64,000 nucleotides of DNA from Alicyclobacillus kakegawensis NBRC 103104 (GTDB taxonomy: Bacteria; Bacillota; Bacilli; Alicyclobacillales; Alicyclobacillaceae), in the NCBI RefSeq assembly GCF_001552655.1, contig NZ_BCRP01000004.1, positions 62,001 to 126,000 on the forward strand. Reading direction: 5' to 3'. This document shows, one piece after another, positions 44,327-57,225 of this stretch. Position numbers and translations under genes: made by a program. The number at the start of each line of letters is the position of its first letter. The stretch's first letter is position 1. Under the pieces are notes generated by a model. That model saw only the letters and a list, made by a program, of their open reading frames with translations, was not told the DNA's origin and made no database searches.

Positions 44327-44680
44327 TTATTGCATCAGCATGCGGCCGATGCGGATGGCTGCATCTGCGGCCCGGCGCGCGGTCTGGCGATTGAGCCAGT
44401 GCGACGTGTTGACGGCGGGCCACGCTGGTCCCCAATCAGGCTGGGCGTTTACGGGCGCACCCTGATGGGGTGTGGCGTGGCCGGATGCCACAGGATGGTG
44501 TTCACTCGGTGTCGACGTTTTGGATGCAGGCGGCCGTCCCCCCGGCAGACCGGTTGCTGGCGCCATCAGGCCGCGCCGCTTGGCGCCGTTGTACACCATG
44601 GTCAGCATTTCCCGCACTCGTTCGTCCTTTGCCACCTCGAACGCCAAAGACCCGACCTTGACCAGTGTGTCCAAGCGCAT
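44327..44680 (-). CDS. Small hypothetical protein upstream of ytpB
   Basis: A 117-residue protein. It has a helical N-terminal part (LVKVGSLAFEVAKDERVREM), a Pro/Ser/His-rich probably disordered middle, and a C-terminal basic amphipathic helix (ARRAADAAIRIGRMLMQ). The ATG at 44678-44680 has GGGAGGGGG upstream. It is in the same direction as ytpB, 133 bp upstream, and divergent from the dynamin-like genes. No known family; the ends look like membrane-surface helices (inference). Confidence 0.6.
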   Translation of the reverse strand: MRLDTLVKVGSLAFEVAKDERVREMLTMVYNGAKRRGLMAPATGLPGGRPPASKTSTPSEHHPVASGHATPHQGAPVNAQPDWGPAWPAVNTSHWLNRQTARRAADAAIRIGRMLMQ

Positions 44681-44870
44681 GGGAACGCACCCCCTCCCGG
44701 CATCACCGCGTGGCTGGCTGCACCAACGCATCTGCAACAGGGTATGCGCGGGCGGCGGGGGATGGCAGGACGGTTGTCTGTGGGCGCGGATTGCACAGCA
44801 GACGGGTGTTTCCATGGCACGCCGGGGCGACCTGTGATACCTTGAAGGAGTTGAAGTGGAGGAGAAGCCG

Positions 44871-46433
44871 ATGACCAGAGGAATGCAAAGGCTGCGTGCC
44901 CGCGTGGAAGCGGCCGGGGACGTCGCCACGGCAGAGAAATTGGTCCAGTTGGCGGCCCGGGCGGAGGTGCCGGAGCAGGTGGTGATAGCCTTTGTGGGAT
45001 TGTTTTCCGCCGGCAAGTCCAGCCTCATCAATCACCTGTGCGGAAGTCCCGCCATGGCCACGGGCGCGGTGCCCACGACCGCCCAGGTGACTGGGGTGGA
45101 ACTGCCGGGTACGGAGGGACGTGTGCGGCTGTTGGACACGCCAGGAATTGATTCGACTGACGACGCACATCAACAAGCCACGCAAGCGGCGCTGTATCAG
45201 GCCGACGTGGTGTGCCTGGTGATGGACTACCAACACGTCGAGAGCGACGCCAACCTGGAATGGGCGTATCAATTGTCCGGCAGCGGCAAGCGCCTGGCGC
45301 TGATTGTCAATCAAATCGACAAGCACCTGGAGTGGGAGATCCCGTTTGCAACGTTTGTGGAGCGGATACAAACCACCTTGACGGATTGGGAGATCGAGTA
45401 TGAGCGATTGTTTTTTGTCAGTTCCCGCAACCATCCGTCCAACCAGGTGGAGGATTTGCGACGCTGGCTGGCGGAACTGGCCGACGGCGCGAGCCAGTCG
45501 CAACTGGAGCACCGGGCGCTCGAACTCATCGAGGAGCACTTGAATTGGAGGTACAGCGCCATCCAGCAACAACACGCAATGGCTGTCCGCAAAGTGTTGG
45601 CGTTGCCGCCCGAGGTGGATGTCTCGCGTGAGGTGGACGTCTCGGTCCGGCTGGGACAGCTGCACTTGCAACTCTCCCAGGTCCAGCAGAAAATTCAAGA
45701 GGGACAAGATGCGTTGGCGGATACGTCTGAGCAGTTCCTGTCGCGATTGTTGCGAGAGATTGAACTGGCGCAGGTGGCTCCCTACGAGACCACGGAAAAA
45801 GGGCGCTTGTTTGTCGAGAGCCTGCGGCCCGGTTTTCGTGTCGGCTGGCTGCGCAGCGCGGAGCGCACAGCAGCGGAGCGCCAACGGCGGTTGGCCGCTT
45901 TTCGCGCCGATTTGACCGAGCGGTCCGAGAAGTACCTGTTGTGGCCGGTGCAGACTCACCTGCGCGAGTTTGCCGCCGCGGCCCGGTGGGCGGACGATGA
46001 GACCAAGGCCGCGGTGGACAACCTGCGCGTGTCCATTGAGGACGAATGGTTGCGCCAGTTGGTCCGCCAAGGCGCGCTCGTCTCCGAGCAGTACCCGTAC
46101 CAGTATGTGAAAGACGTGGTGGGGGCGCTCCGGGCGGACGTCCGCGCCCAGGTCAAGGCGCTCGTGGAGCGCTGGCAGCAACAGGCTGTCGCGAAACTCA
46201 ACGAGGAGGTCCGGGATTTGCGGCGGGAAGGGGAGACCCTGACGGAGAAGATAGCCGTCCTGGAGGCATGGCAGGCGCTGTGCGCGGAGCGCGCCGAAGC
46301 GGCGCGCGAGCTGCGCGGCCTGTTGGACGATCCGCCCGCAGCTCTGACCCACAGCGAGTCCGCGGATGGCGCTCTGTCGTCCGCTTCCGATACGGTCTCA
46401 CACCCTGATGCGGAGGTGCGAATTCGCGTATGA
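44871..46433 (+). CDS. Dynamin-like GTPase, first of a pair (DynA N-terminal-half-like)
   Basis: A 520-residue bacterial dynamin. The G domain has G1 GLFSAGKS (43-50), the G2 threonines in VPTTAQVTG, G3 LLDTPG (ending about 92) and G4 NQID (147-150). Long helical stalk-like segments follow, up to RDLRREGETLTEKIAVLEAW. Such proteins tubulate or fuse membranes. The ATG has GGAGGAG upstream; a GTG at 44856 also has AAGGAG. The downstream dynamin gene overlaps by 4 bp, so the two are coupled and resemble the two halves of Bacillus subtilis DynA. Confidence 0.9.
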   Translation: MTRGMQRLRARVEAAGDVATAEKLVQLAARAEVPEQVVIAFVGLFSAGKSSLINHLCGSPAMATGAVPTTAQVTGVELPGTEGRVRLLDTPGIDSTDDAHQQATQAALYQADVVCLVMDYQHVESDANLEWAYQLSGSGKRLALIVNQIDKHLEWEIPFATFVERIQTTLTDWEIEYERLFFVSSRNHPSNQVEDLRRWLAELADGASQSQLEHRALELIEEHLNWRYSAIQQQHAMAVRKVLALPPEVDVSREVDVSVRLGQLHLQLSQVQQKIQEGQDALADTSEQFLSRLLREIELAQVAPYETTEKGRLFVESLRPGFRVGWLRSAERTAAERQRRLAAFRADLTERSEKYLLWPVQTHLREFAAAARWADDETKAAVDNLRVSIEDEWLRQLVRQGALVSEQYPYQYVKDVVGALRADVRAQVKALVERWQQQAVAKLNEEVRDLRREGETLTEKIAVLEAWQALCAERAEAARELRGLLDDPPAALTHSESADGALSSASDTVSHPDAEVRIRV

Positions 46434-48538
46434 GGGAGATCCACAACTCAACCCGGTCTGCACCGGACACGACGGTGGACGGGTTGCGACGCATGGTCGC
46501 CTCGCTTGCCGAACGCCTGTCCCGCCTCCCCTACACCGAGGGGTGGCGCCGCGAGCTGGCTGATCTCGAGGGGCGTCTGCTGCGGGAGGAGCAGCTGGTG
46601 GCTGTGTTTGGCGCTTTTTCCACCGGCAAATCGAGCTTGATCAATGCGGTGCTGGGAGAGCCCGTGCTGGTCGTTTCGCCCAACCCAACCACGGCGGCGA
46701 TCACGGAACTGCGTTTTGCCCCGGCGTCTGGGCAAGACGCTCGCCCGCAAGGCGGCGGCCTGGTCGCCGGGGAGCCGGGCGCGCCATCGCCGGCGGTCCC
46801 TGCCCCAGCGGACGCGGAGGGAGGAACGGTGGCGCGGGTTGAGGCCAAAACGGAGGCGCAGATGTGGGATGACGTATCGCTGGCCTTGGCCGCCCTCCAG
46901 CGCCAGGCGGATGGGTTGGCGGGGGCGGCCGAGCTGGCGAAGTCGCTCAAGCCGAAGGACGTGCCGAGCGGCCGCCGCAAGACGTTGTCATTCCTCAAGG
47001 CATTTGCCGCCGGTTATGAGGAACTGGCTGACCGGTTGGGCCGCACATGGACCCTGCCGGCAGCCGATGCGAGCCGCCTGTGCGCGGAAGAACGGTACGC
47101 CTGTTTTGTTCAGCGGGTGCAGTTGTGGCATCCATCGGCATCGCTCGCCGGTCGGCTGCCGCGTGGGCTCGTGTGGGTAGACACCCCGGGGGTGGACTCG
47201 GTGCACCGGCGCCACACCGATGTCGCATTCCAATACATGCGGCTGGCGGACGCCATCGTGTTCGTCTTGTATTATACGCACGCGCTGTCCCGAGCCGAAA
47301 AAGACTTTCTCCTGCAACTGGCTGAGGTCCAGGACTTGGTTGGCGCGGACAAGCTGTTCGTGGTCATCAACGCCGTGGACTTGGCTCAGTCCGAGGAAGA
47401 ACGACAAGCGGTGCGCGAGCGGGTGCTGGAGGAGCTGCGTCAATTGGGCATCCGTCAGCCTCGCATCTACGAGGTGTCCAGCCAACTCGCCTATGCGGCT
47501 CGCCAACTGCAGCGGCAACCGGACAATCCGGCCATCGTCGAACTCTTGCGCACCCGCCTCGGAGAGTCTGCGCCGCCGGATGCACCCGCGCTGCTTGAGC
47601 AGTCCGGGGTGCCCACGTTGGAGCGGGACCTGAGCGGCTTTTTGACCACCCAGGCGCGAGAGATGGCCGTGGACGCCGTCGTCCGCACTCTGCGCAGTCT
47701 AGAGTCTCGGGTGGCGGCCCGCATCGAGCAGGTGAGAGCGGCGGAGGCGGCGTCGGAACACGACCGTCAGGAGCTCGCGGCGCGGCGGCGGGCCATTTGG
47801 GAAGAGATGGAGCGTATGGGCGAGGCGCTGGATGCAGGCCAGGACGAGCCGTCCCGCAGGCTGCGCCAAGAAGCGCAGGAACTGGTTTTCCATGCAGGCG
47901 AACGGATTCGCTTCCGCTTCACTCAGTTGTTCCGCGAGGCGTTCTATCCCGGTCGCTTTCAAGGCCTCACCCGAGCCTCAGATGCCCTGCAGGCCGCCTT
48001 GCAGGAGCTGGTGGAATCGCTACGGCGGCAGGTGGAGATGGAGTGCCGCACCCTGGCCCTGCGCCTGGGGACCTATGCAGAACAATTATACACACGGGAG
48101 CGGGCGGCGCTGGCCAGGGATTTGGAGGCCGTTGGCCGCGCTGATGTGGCTGACGGGCTGCCGGACGCGGCGCTTGTGTCCCTGGCTGACCAGGCGTACC
48201 GGTCTCGGCTCGATGCCGAGCCGCTGATTCCTTATCTGAAGGGGTTTCAATCGGCCAAATCGTTTTTCGAGGGCGGCGGGCAGGACGCGATGCGCCAAGG
48301 GATGGCCGAGGCGGCAGCCGATGCGGTGCGGGAGGACCTGGCCAATTTGACCGGCCCGATGACTGACGCCGCTGTGCTCGCTCTCCAGCGCCAGTATCGG
48401 GCCCTGGTGGCTGCCGTGCTCAACTCTCCCTGCACAGCCGACGACTCGCGGGCGGAGCGCGAGCCGTTGGAGGCGTGGGAAGGCCTGGCGGACGATTTGC
48501 GGCGCGCGCTCGCGGCTCAACTGGCGGCGCACGCGTGA
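46430..48538 (+). CDS. Dynamin-like GTPase, second of a pair (DynA C-terminal-half-like)
   Basis: A 702-residue dynamin. G1 GAFSTGKS (61-68), G2 NPTTAAITE, G3 WVDTPG (ending about 254) and G4-like NAVD are present. G2 and G3 are separated by a long insert (about 100-240), as in the second domain of DynA-type proteins. The rest is helical, with a possible membrane-contact paddle near LIPYLKGFQSAKSFF. It starts on the stop of the first dynamin gene (ATGA). Combined length is about 1,220 residues, close to the fused 1,193-residue DynA. Confidence 0.9.
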   Translation: MREIHNSTRSAPDTTVDGLRRMVASLAERLSRLPYTEGWRRELADLEGRLLREEQLVAVFGAFSTGKSSLINAVLGEPVLVVSPNPTTAAITELRFAPASGQDARPQGGGLVAGEPGAPSPAVPAPADAEGGTVARVEAKTEAQMWDDVSLALAALQRQADGLAGAAELAKSLKPKDVPSGRRKTLSFLKAFAAGYEELADRLGRTWTLPAADASRLCAEERYACFVQRVQLWHPSASLAGRLPRGLVWVDTPGVDSVHRRHTDVAFQYMRLADAIVFVLYYTHALSRAEKDFLLQLAEVQDLVGADKLFVVINAVDLAQSEEERQAVRERVLEELRQLGIRQPRIYEVSSQLAYAARQLQRQPDNPAIVELLRTRLGESAPPDAPALLEQSGVPTLERDLSGFLTTQAREMAVDAVVRTLRSLESRVAARIEQVRAAEAASEHDRQELAARRRAIWEEMERMGEALDAGQDEPSRRLRQEAQELVFHAGERIRFRFTQLFREAFYPGRFQGLTRASDALQAALQELVESLRRQVEMECRTLALRLGTYAEQLYTRERAALARDLEAVGRADVADGLPDAALVSLADQAYRSRLDAEPLIPYLKGFQSAKSFFEGGGQDAMRQGMAEAAADAVREDLANLTGPMTDAAVLALQRQYRALVAAVLNSPCTADDSRAEREPLEAWEGLADDLRRALAAQLAAHA

Positions 48539-49923: not shown

Positions 49924-52410
49924 TCAGGGCCGTTTTCGCGCGCTCGCCACCCCGATGGACAAACCGGAAATGAGCAGGCCGGCTGCCGCTGACGCCAGGC
50001 TTGGCCGCCACATGAGCGGGCGGTAGGTGAGGACGATGCGGTGGCGGCCCGGTCCGACCTTGACCGCCGTGAGCACACCGTCCACACGCTTGATGGAAGC
50101 CGACCGTCCATCCACCGTCGCATGCCAGTTCGGATCGAACATTTGCGAGAGGACAAACCAGCCGGACGATGGGGCGTCGACCTGCCACACTTGCCGGTTG
50201 AGACCCCACTTTACGCGGTGTGCCGTTTCCGCCTGCCATCCCGGGTACCACTCTGGTCGTCGGGCAAACCATGCCGGCGCCACCGGATCTGGGTTTTTCC
50301 AGATGGTCTGGCCGTGCGCACTGAACACCGGTGTCCATGGTTGTGGAGACAACGTGACACCGACGTTCTCCCGGACGGGCGCTCGTCCGCTCCCCAGGAC
50401 GACAAGCGAACCGAGGGGCACATTGGCGTTCCACGATTGGTTGACAACAGACACCTTCGTTTGCACGGTGCGCGGCCAATCGCGGGGAAGGTCTATCAGG
50501 TATTCCGATGCGGGCAAGCCGCGAATCCAGTACGTTTTGGACCGACCTGCAGCGGTCACGGTCACCGACAACCAGGTCTGTTCTATCCAGGCGTAGCTTG
50601 GCGCATAGGGCGGGCGGCGCAACTGTATGGCCAGAGATTTGGTCCCTGGAGGCAGGGCGGGTAGAACGCCGGACCACTGCGTCGGATGCCCTGGTTTTTC
50701 CGTTTGGAACGGGGTGTAGCCGGACGCAGCGACGATGTAGCGCACGCCCAGGCTGTCTGCCAAGGCTCTGGGTTGGTTCAAGAAGACGGTGTCCGTCCAA
50801 GTCAGGCCGACATGGTTGGAGTACCATGCGGGCTCCAGGGAGTCGTAACCGTTCACCATCGGCAATCGGCGGGACAATCCCTCGTCCAGTTCCACATCGG
50901 TCTCCCCCAGGGACACGATGCGCGGAAATCCAACGGAACTTGAGGTGTGGTGCGCCAACCAGGTGACGATAGGGCTCGGGGAGGTGTACGGGGCCGCCTT
51001 GGCATTGACAATTGTGGCTGTGAGAGAGGCGTGCAGGACTGCGCTTGCGGCCGCCGCCAGAGACGCGGTACGCGCCAACGGGGCTGTCAGGCTCGCAACT
51101 CCGGCGATGGCGAGGACCGTCGCCAGCGGCGTCAGCACGGATAAAACCGGCGCCTGGCTCAATGGGCCTGCCAGTCGGCTCGCGATCAGGGCGCTGGCGC
51201 AGACGAGGCACACATAGCGCACAGCGCGTCCAAACCAGGGGCGGTGCGCAGGTGATTGCCACAAACGAAGACCCACGGCGCACAAAAGACTGAGGTAAAA
51301 ATCGGTGAGGCCGATATACCGGGCCGGGACGCGGAACAAATCGAACCCAGGCAGGTGGGTGAGCGCCCAGAAGAAAGGTCCGTTTCCGCCCAAAGCGAGC
51401 AGGCTGGTAACAACAGCTCCCACTGTCCATTCGGGCACGTCCATGCCCTGGCGCCAACCGGCGCAGGCGGCGGCCAGGGCGAATAGGAAGCCAACCAGCC
51501 CGATGGTGCACCAACTCTCCCAAAACTGCAGACCGAACATTCGCTCGAACGCCATGGCCGAAAAGTGGGACCCGCTCCAGCCTCCGCCCGCCGTATCCGG
51601 CGCTATCCATTGCAAGAAGGCCCACGGCGACAATGAGCCTTGAAGCAGGAAGGACGCCCCGGCGTGGGCACGGTCTGAGTACAGCATAAGGTCCAAGGTG
51701 TTGGCCCATTGGGGGGCCGAGAGCAGGGCCGCGAGTGTCAAAGCGCCTAGCCACGCCAGCCAGACCTGGCGGCGATAGGGGCGAAGGTGAAACGCGGCGT
51801 CGATGAGCAGCACGATGGCGGTGTAGAACACCATCTGCGGATGGCCTGCATACACCTCCAGGGCGAGAACTGTCGCCAAAGCGACGACGTGGACGGCGGT
51901 TGGCCGATTCCAGAGCCTCCGCTGCGAGAGCGTCACCAATGGAAGAAAGGCCAAGGTGTCGAACATTTGTGTATGCACCTGATGTCCGACAAAGAAGCCG
52001 CAGGCGGCAAAGCACAACGCGCCGGCGACCGACGGCAGGCGCCGCCGGGTCAGGTCATAGGCGAGCGCGTACATGCCGACAGCGCACAGCGCCGCATGCA
52101 TCACGGTGGATATTGTCAACGCCTTGGCCACGGGCAGCAGCAGATAGATCACGTTGGGGAGGTAGAGCGGCCCCGACTGGCCAGCGGCCAAGAACGGTTG
52201 ACCGGCGAAGCTGAAGGGGTTCCACAGCGGAACCTGAAGGTGTTGGTACGCCCAGGCCAAGAACATGCGCTGCGGCGCGTTCAGGTGGCTGAGGTCGTCC
52301 AGCGCCGGTTGTCCCGGTGTGGCCCAGTTTGGAAACGCCAGCAGCACACCCGCGAGCACGAGCAGGATAGAAGGACCATGCCGACGTGTGCGCGCAAGCG
52401 TCGTGTTCAT
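49924..52410 (-). CDS. YfhO-family large membrane protein
   Basis: An 828-residue polytopic protein: about a dozen membrane helices in residues 1-500, then a beta-rich extracytoplasmic domain (about 500-790), then one last helix (LASAAAGLLISGLSIGVA). Landmarks DDLSHLNAPQR, WNPFSFAGQPFLA and FDLFRVPARYIG fit the YfhO family, GT-C-like proteins linked to glycosylation of lipoteichoic acid or other surface polymers. The ATG follows AAAGGGGGG. It is divergent from a teichoic-acid-type glycosyltransferase, which supports an envelope role. Confidence 0.9.
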   Translation of the reverse strand: MNTTLARTRRHGPSILLVLAGVLLAFPNWATPGQPALDDLSHLNAPQRMFLAWAYQHLQVPLWNPFSFAGQPFLAAGQSGPLYLPNVIYLLLPVAKALTISTVMHAALCAVGMYALAYDLTRRRLPSVAGALCFAACGFFVGHQVHTQMFDTLAFLPLVTLSQRRLWNRPTAVHVVALATVLALEVYAGHPQMVFYTAIVLLIDAAFHLRPYRRQVWLAWLGALTLAALLSAPQWANTLDLMLYSDRAHAGASFLLQGSLSPWAFLQWIAPDTAGGGWSGSHFSAMAFERMFGLQFWESWCTIGLVGFLFALAAACAGWRQGMDVPEWTVGAVVTSLLALGGNGPFFWALTHLPGFDLFRVPARYIGLTDFYLSLLCAVGLRLWQSPAHRPWFGRAVRYVCLVCASALIASRLAGPLSQAPVLSVLTPLATVLAIAGVASLTAPLARTASLAAAASAVLHASLTATIVNAKAAPYTSPSPIVTWLAHHTSSSVGFPRIVSLGETDVELDEGLSRRLPMVNGYDSLEPAWYSNHVGLTWTDTVFLNQPRALADSLGVRYIVAASGYTPFQTEKPGHPTQWSGVLPALPPGTKSLAIQLRRPPYAPSYAWIEQTWLSVTVTAAGRSKTYWIRGLPASEYLIDLPRDWPRTVQTKVSVVNQSWNANVPLGSLVVLGSGRAPVRENVGVTLSPQPWTPVFSAHGQTIWKNPDPVAPAWFARRPEWYPGWQAETAHRVKWGLNRQVWQVDAPSSGWFVLSQMFDPNWHATVDGRSASIKRVDGVLTAVKVGPGRHRIVLTYRPLMWRPSLASAAAGLLISGLSIGVASARKRP

Positions 52411-55982: not shown

Positions 55983-56208
55983 TGGGCGATTGTTCAAGGT
56001 TCGATATCCGGTTTCACAATCAGCGTCATCTACGCTCCGCTTGAACATTCTCACTTACTTTATATCAGTTAGTATCACACGTGTAATAAGATTAAAATAA
56101 ACTCACTACTTCATCAATAGACTGTCTCAATCTAGAATAAAAACGCCGCTTGCATGAAATGCCTGGCGGTAATATAACCAATTCCATTTGAAGGTAGGGA
56201 GTTTCCGT

Positions 56209-57225
56209 ATGGAATACCGTTTGTTGGGCAGAACAGGATTAAAAGTAAGCGAATTGTGTCTCGGAGCCATGACGTTTGGTCGTGAGGCCAGCGAAACGGA
56301 AAGCCATCGTATGCTGGATCGCTTTGTTGAAGCCGGTGGTAACTTCATCGACACGGCCAATGTATACAGTCGGGGCATTTCTGAAGAGATTGTCGGGCGT
56401 TGGCTCAAGGGAAAAGACAGAAGTGATTTCGTGATTGCCACGAAAGTGCGGTTTGCCATGGGTGACGGCCCTAACGACATTGGCCTGACACGCAAGCATA
56501 TCATGGATGCAGTTGAGGCCAGTCTGCAACGCTTGGGGACCGACTACATTGATTTATATCAGGTTCATGCTTGGGATCCCCTGACTCCCATCGAGGAAAC
56601 GCTGAGCGCGCTTAACGACCTGGTGCACAGGGGGTACGTCCGTTACATTGGAGCCAGCAACTTCCGCGCCTGGCAGCTGCAGAAGGCAATTTACACCAGT
56701 CGCATGCATGGCTGGGCCAGCTTTGTTTCGCTCCAGCCTCAGTATAACCTGTTGTGTCGAGCCACAGAGTTTGAACTCCTGCCGTTGGCCGAAGCCGAAG
56801 GACTAGGGGTGATTCCTTGGAGTCCTCTGCGGGGTGGTTGGTTGAGCGGCAAGTTCCGCCGAGGGATGACCGAACCTCCCGCTAATACCCGCATTGAACA
56901 GGCGGACAAGCACGGTTGGGGTGAAGCCTGGAGCAAGTACAACAACGAGACTACCTGGAAGGTAATAGACACCCTTCTCTCGGTCGCACGGGAGGCTGAA
57001 AAATCTCCGGCTCAAGTGGCTCTCAACTGGCTGCTCAGTCGTAAGGCTGTAACGGCTCCGATCATCGGGGCCCGTACGATGGAGCAATTGGAAGACAATT
57101 TGGGTGCAAGTGGTTGGCGTCTCACCCCCCAACAGATAGAAAAATTGGACGAAGCCAGCCACCTCCCCGTCTCGTACCCTTATGACGAAGGAGCCGAGCA
57201 GCAGCAGCGGTCGGGCCGGATGTAA
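56209..57225 (+). CDS. Aldo/keto reductase
   Basis: A 338-residue NADPH-dependent oxidoreductase of the AKR superfamily. The catalytic Asp and Tyr lie in FIDTANVYS, Lys in IATKVRF and His in [11 protein letters not shown]; the cofactor loop is [17 protein letters not shown]11/12-like (YghZ/general stress type). The ATG has AGGGAG 7 bases upstream. The gene and its AT-rich upstream region (about 56.0-56.2 kb) are clearly less GC-rich than the flanking genes, and a broken superoxide dismutase gene follows, suggesting an acquired segment. Confidence 0.93.

Follow-up and report, generated by a model that had tools for sequence, protein, structure and literature searches.

DynA as two adjacent dynamin genes in Alicyclobacillus kakegawensis and related Bacilli

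The gene pair

In this work we analyzed two adjacent dynamin-like GTPase genes of Alicyclobacillus kakegawensis NBRC 103104 (family Alicyclobacillaceae), which lie in a 64,000-nucleotide stretch of contig NZ_BCRP01000004.1 (positions 62,001 to 126,000), here termed the window and used for all coordinates. The first open reading frame, ORF1 (44871..46433, plus strand), encodes a protein of 520 residues and the second, ORF2 (46430..48538, plus strand), one of 702 residues; profile matches and trees identify them as orthologues of the D1 and the D2 half, respectively, of the two-headed dynamin DynA. Stop and start overlap in the four bases ATGA (46430..46433, plus strand). A first-pass annotation of this DNA had described two dynamin-like GTPases with a 4 bp overlap and about 1,220 residues; it proved exact in its coordinates, the total being 1,222 residues with each GTPase intact. 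ORF1 starts with ATG, an alternative start being the GTG at 44856, and has GGAGGAG (44858..44864, plus strand) as its presumed ribosome-binding motif; that presumed for ORF2, GGAGGTG (46412..46418, plus strand), lies within the 3' end of ORF1.

Both proteins match the Pfam family Dynamin_N (PF00350) well above its cut-off of 27 bits, with 73.2 bits for ORF1 and 95.3 bits for ORF2. On the NCBI DynA model NF052648 (1187 positions) the best stretches are 130-518 for ORF1 and then 652-875 for ORF2, and the pair is thus collinear with fused DynA. Each ORF alone scores about 218 bits, far short of the equivalog cut-off of 1600 bits for a single two-headed polypeptide, a cut-off which the fused relatives, too, reach in just 2 of the 151 genomes of the class search. 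Scores for the LeoA/HP0731 family NF041922 (24.5 and 14.5 bits) remain below its cut-off of 325 bits, and the PADLOC matches of the pair to LeoA and LeoBC (57-87 bits) were taken as general dynamin similarity. The pair is single-copy in the genome, where the sole further Dynamin_N signal reaches 24.1 bits, or 29.8 bits with its frame neighbours. The nearest named relative among the matches listed is Alicyclobacillus shizuokensis, with 88% for ORF1.

The nucleotide-binding sites were assigned by alignment and by reading of the sequence, under the motif names G1 to G4. In ORF1 (plus strand) these are the P-loop or G1, GLFSAGKSS (44997..45023), G3, DTPG (45135-45146), and G4, NQID (45309-45320); in ORF2 (plus strand) they are G1, GAFSTGKSS (46610..46636), G3, DTPG (47180-47191), and G4, NAVD (47369-47380). 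Alignments of 45 rows for each ORF showed the core positions of G1 and G3 to be invariant in both proteins, as are the G2 threonines (T69 in ORF1; T87 and T88 in ORF2). Within G4 the D of ORF1 is invariant and its N is the majority residue, and N and D are both invariant in ORF2. All four motifs are present in both proteins, as the first-pass annotation had proposed.

Orthology to the two halves of DynA

A FastTree phylogeny of 54 loci separated the D1 and D2 halves fully and placed ORF1 with the former and ORF2 with the latter. The joint trees used 31 loci, i.e., 29 of these 54 together with L099 and L100; left out were, among others, loci flagged as long in the 54-locus run (L129, L130, L134, and L120) or in a concatenated 68-row run (L133, L134, and L075). 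In a mixture-model tree which included eight other dynamins, support was 100 for D1 and 99 for D2, each clade holding 31 rows, while the eight outgroup dynamins cohered weakly (67). The careful joint tree, which further omits L131, L103, L106, L113, and the eight outgroup rows and so holds D1 and D2 alone in 54 rows, gave a support of 100/100 for the division. The trees show ORF1 to be orthologous to the D1 half of DynA and ORF2 to the D2 half. The proposal of a DynA encoded by two coupled genes would have failed had the proteins branched outside the two clades; they do not, since the division is supported with 100/100, and with 100 and 99 in the presence of the outgroup dynamins. As a separate observation, L099 and L100, from a family outside the class (f90), carry a fused DynA with the unusual D1 P-loop GH[IV]SGGKS, and the position of this DynA among the Bacilli in the joint trees suggests transfer.

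Conservation of the two frames and the junction

Of the 59 genomes of the window's order which were searched, 45 had a DynA match at 1e-30. Within the Alicyclobacillaceae (family f1) both halves were found at this threshold in 38 of 41 genomes; in two of the others (G007 and G027) the gene meets a contig end, and in G012 nothing matched even at a threshold of 0.001. All 38 pairs (the window and L035-L071) were read at the DNA level, and every one consists of two reading frames. Nonsynonymous (dN) and synonymous (dS) divergence was computed from the nearest relative: ORF1 has a dN of 0.062 and a dS of 0.271, and ORF2 a dN of 0.059 and a dS of 0.276; both genes are thus under purifying selection with a dN/dS of about 0.2.

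Junctions in these pairs were picked by a script which favours starts with a preceding ribosome-binding motif. A 4-base overlap was picked in 15/38 pairs and an 8-base overlap in 9/38, and a strong motif precedes the picked start in 30/38, which is an upper figure because of this preference. The relative frames of the two genes are distributed 20, 17, and 1 across the 38 pairs, and the stop codon at the junction differs among relatives. The split pairs also differ from fused loci in length. P-loops of fused loci are spaced by 575-620 residues in 87/100 cases (range 505-691), and in split pairs the residues after the ORF1 P-loop and before the ORF2 P-loop sum to about 495-550 (538 in the window, with ORF2 starts as picked). 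The extra segment of the fused forms is a variable linker, which is absent from the split pairs inspected, so that split and fused forms differ by more than one stop codon.

These data bear on the view that a single gene has been disrupted here, either by a mistake in sequencing or assembly or by a frameshift of recent date; the first-pass annotation had recommended a check for frameshift errors at 46430. Such a case apparently exists in Paenibacillus sp. N3.4 (L167), where overlapping frames are combined with a fused-type linker and the contig coverage is 6.8. Against it, all 38 family members are split in varying relative frames, a ribosome-binding motif is often present and the linker is missing from the split pairs inspected. 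An error or frameshift was thus rejected for the window, where we consider it practically out of the question.

Programmed frameshifting at the junction, or read-through of the stop there, could yield a fused protein as well; this would fit the four-base overlap. It would also fit those loci in which only one stop separates two frames that are in register, namely A. mengziensis (L057/L160) and seven loci of families f23 and f37 (L087-L093). The variation of relative frame and stop codon among relatives and the missing linker speak against recoding, and no slippery motif common to the junctions was seen when these were read by eye, without a formal motif search. We therefore regard programmed recoding as unsupported and very unlikely. 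It should be noted that for L057 and L087-L093 the survey gave an open-frame length of about 1200, which bridges the in-frame stop, and reading of the DNA showed these loci to be split. Split genes can thus look fused in surveys, and for this reason survey rows which had not been read were scored neither as fused nor as split.

Both genes are probably carried on one message, with the start of ORF2 presumably coupled to the end of ORF1. Scans for promoters (none found, 0.7 expected) and terminator-like sites (five found, 3.5 expected) were uninformative, the counts being near expectation.

Split and fused forms across the Bacilli

The first-pass annotation had implied that the two-gene arrangement is rare, which is not borne out, as several other lineages of Bacilli are also split. 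In f2, the sister family of the Alicyclobacillaceae, the halves were found in six genomes, four split (L072, L073, L075, and L077, in the last of which the second frame runs off the contig) and two fused (L074 and L076); by genus, g19 (the two fused loci) has a long linker and g17 and g18 are split. All 16 genomes of families f23, f36, and f37 with a class-search match are split as well (L078-L093). A further 41 loci (L094-L134), picked mostly as fused or doubtful, comprised 38 with a single frame, including L102 with a truncated second half; the exceptions are L098 and L101, which are broken within the gene, and L094, which meets a contig end. A scan of named relatives kept the best 80 of at least 575, and in these 12 Alicyclobacillaceae and Brevibacillus massiliensis were split, 62 loci were fused, four sequences (L158, L181, L195, and L229) ended too early, and Paenibacillus sp. 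N3.4 resembled a frameshifted fused gene. Because these locus sets are selections, no overall rate of split and fused forms can be derived from them. At phylum level, 12 of 199 genomes matched at 1e-30, seven of them from the window's class. Two genomes, G092 and G156, each carry two different fused DynA genes (L110/L111 and L119/L120), of which L111 and L120 group together in the concatenated 68-row tree.

History of the fusion

On the concatenated 68-row tree the label fused or split changes at least seven times; five of these changes are forced by well-supported branches and one of the seven is the doubtful N3.4. A careful tree of 25 rows, chosen from the 68 and without the split f2 row L075, shows five label changes (five also over the 5-95% bootstrap range), four of them forced. 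A single group of all split forms was rejected on these 25 rows, with a log-likelihood lower by 226.7 and a p-value of 6.45e-47 in the AU (approximately unbiased) test, the group having been named after an earlier tree was inspected. The trait has changed at least four times, since the split f23, f36, and f37 lie among fused forms.

The order of these changes was addressed by using the duplication of D1 and D2 as a root, each half serving as the outgroup of the other with no third family. In the D2 half the Alicyclobacillaceae branch first (all others together 100/96), followed by f2 and then by the remaining, mostly fused rows (100/98). These are also grouped in the D1 half (95/95), where the order of f1 and f2 is unsupported. 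With this root and N3.4 dropped, parsimony requires six changes from a split ancestor and seven from a fused one; the values are seven and eight with N3.4 included, and five and seven without N3.4 and the long rows L133 and L134. Attraction between fast-evolving rows may affect the rooted tree.

In an alternative history, the window pair would not be a pre-fusion relic but would have arisen when an ancestral fused DynA split secondarily. The loci read outside the window's order are mostly fused (38/41 in L094-L134, a set mostly chosen so), as are 62 of the best 80 named loci of at least 575, and later splits do exist, the two-gene forms of f23, f36, and f37 being surrounded by fused ones. Rooting the concatenated tree on each of its 66 inner branches favoured a fused ancestor in 35 cases and a split one in 25, with six ties. 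This is opposed by the duplication root, with the Alicyclobacillaceae first in the D2 half and six against seven changes, and by the junctions, since frames are in register in 7/16 of the splits lying among fused forms and in 1/38 of the Alicyclobacillaceae pairs, though genes that overlap can never be in register. We judge a secondary split to be a real possibility, if somewhat short of an even chance. Retention of the pre-fusion state in the Alicyclobacillaceae is only slightly favoured, with parsimony scores of six against seven, and the outcome depends on the root; it is a slight preference and not a result. The wider scenario, in which this family keeps the pre-fusion pair and the machine was repeatedly fused and split again elsewhere in the Bacilli (at least four well-supported switches), leaving covalent linkage dispensable, appears to us evenly balanced between right and wrong.

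Structure and proposed function

Single-chain AlphaFold2 models were confident, with a mean pLDDT (predicted local distance difference test score) of 91.0 for ORF1 and 88.1 for ORF2. The ORF2 model has the fold of a dynamin-like protein (DLP): it matched SynDLP with a Z score of 27.9 and a root-mean-square deviation (rmsd) of 4.5 over 421 of its 702 residues, Campylobacter jejuni DLP1 with a Z score of 22.2, and BDLP with a Z score of 19.9 and an rmsd of 6.2 over 547 residues, and mitofusins also matched. For ORF1 the best Foldseek matches were IniA (top) and BDLP, with template modelling (TM) scores by query length of 0.26-0.28, and its VIA-align list holds mainly GTPase domains. A conserved ORF1 loop, APYETTEKGR..F..G (45771..45860, plus strand), lies, by alignment and model, between a long predicted helix at 257-299 and another at 330-370, and is a reasonable candidate for the membrane-binding tip.

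For B. subtilis DynA, PMC6162298, PMC6104087, and PMC8844932 state that both GTPases must be loaded and functional and that membrane is bound by D1, and by D2 weakly at most. The same texts present adjacent pairs as the form of most bacterial DLPs and describe the C. jejuni pair as a 2:2 tetramer which tethers liposomes. Tethering or fusion of membranes has been reported for DynA as well as for the C. jejuni pair. The window pair is best explained as an unfused, operon-type DynA, which by analogy probably acts as a heteromer at the membrane, all beyond the orthology being inferred. Association of the two chains would most likely involve both the GTPase domains and the helical bundles, and hydrolysis of GTP would depend on both active sites. 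The division of labour between D1 and D2 would be carried over without a covalent link, ORF1 binding the membrane through the bundle tip and ORF2 being a regulatory or bridging partner, and the complex would tether and fuse or repair the cytoplasmic membrane under envelope stress. Non-covalent contact would here replace the variable linker of the fused relatives, and the suggestion of the first-pass annotation that separate halves could form tunable heteromers is plausible.

Several points weigh against this reading. The helical part of ORF1 is a poor rigid-body fit (rmsd 19.4 over 395 residues with SynDLP, 38.1 over 368 with IniA); given these values and the low TM scores, the GTPase fold alone is firmly matched for ORF1, and the helical mismatch may stem from the position of hinges or be genuine. 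Coupling in the C. jejuni pair relies on an assembly domain and an N-terminal helix, and no counterpart of either was identified in the whole-chain matches, through which alone they were looked for. The structure models are of single chains, and a shared operon alone is not proof of a complex. The two dynamins could instead work independently as homo-oligomers, with nothing but the operon in common; PMC6104087 names CrfC as an exception to the rule of heterotypic complexes. We consider independence improbable, given the orthology to both halves of one two-headed protein and the side-by-side position of the halves in 38/41 genomes of the family, with a contig end cutting the gene in two others.

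Gene neighbourhood

The pair is flanked by folB and a DUF2600 gene (minus strand) on one side and by a gene for an htrA-type protease on the other. This order is kept in 12 of the 13 named Alicyclobacillaceae loci among the best 80; the sequence of the thirteenth, L158, ends inside ORF2. DUF2600 is the family of the terpene synthase YtpB, which has a link to membrane stress in B. subtilis. At E 1e-10 no match to the neighbours was found near the pair in Brevibacillus L225 (about 4.3 kb upstream covered) or Aneurinibacillus L180; the frame 56188-57225, further off, does match L225. Upstream of the pair, a short divergent frame (44327-44680, minus strand; MRLDTLVKVGSLAFEVAKDERVREMLTMVYNGAKRRGL...) is probably a small gene; partial matches to it occur upstream of the pair in 12 of the same 13 loci, and it has no Pfam match. 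A YfhO-type membrane protein gene (49924-52410, minus strand) lies downstream of htrA and has a match near the pair in six of the 13.

Comparison with known systems

Side-by-side dynamin pairs are ordinary and well known in bacteria, and at this locus the two adjacent same-strand genes are found in 38/38 pairs of the family. DynA has been described as a two-headed dynamin arising from gene fusion in Firmicutes (PMC8844932) and as encoded by a single gene there (commentary PMC6162298). Literature titles and the beginnings of abstracts, with subscription journals mostly not covered, contained no report of a split DynA. What is new with respect to this literature is that there are systematic exceptions, with repeated switching, to the rule of a single two-headed gene in Firmicutes: a conserved two-gene DynA occurs in several families of Bacilli, and the fusion state is changeable. 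Separate chains would allow each half to be purified, mutated, and titrated alone. If the proposed history is true, repeated fusion and renewed splitting of the machine mean that covalent linkage is dispensable, and the lineage set becomes a natural experiment on the role of the linker, with close comparisons for membrane fusion offered by g19 and g17/g18 in f2 and by f37 and its fused f14 neighbour.

B. subtilis DynA (NF052648) resembles the window pair in the number and order of its dynamin GTPases, two in all, with one half orthologous to each of the window proteins, but is one chain with a linker where the window has two chains and none. C. jejuni DLP1/DLP2, described in PMC6104087 as a heterotetramer, are likewise adjacent same-strand dynamin genes; unlike the window pair they have, according to the same source, a Campylobacter-specific assembly domain, and the D1/D2 trees here do not include them. 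Foldseek matched their structure entry 5owv to both window proteins, through chains A and B for ORF2 and through chain A for ORF1. Streptomyces DynA/DynB and mycobacterial IniA/IniC are also dynamin pairs of Gram-positive bacteria, and IniA is the top Foldseek match of ORF1. They differ from the window pair in that the Streptomyces proteins and the mycobacterial Ini dynamins are reported to act in division or drug tolerance (PMC6104087). The two-gene DynA loci of Brevibacillus, f2, f23, f36, and f37 have the same D1/D2 split with picked-start distances of -4 to +11 bases, although in the tree fused lineages stand between the Alicyclobacillaceae pair and those of f23, f36, and f37.

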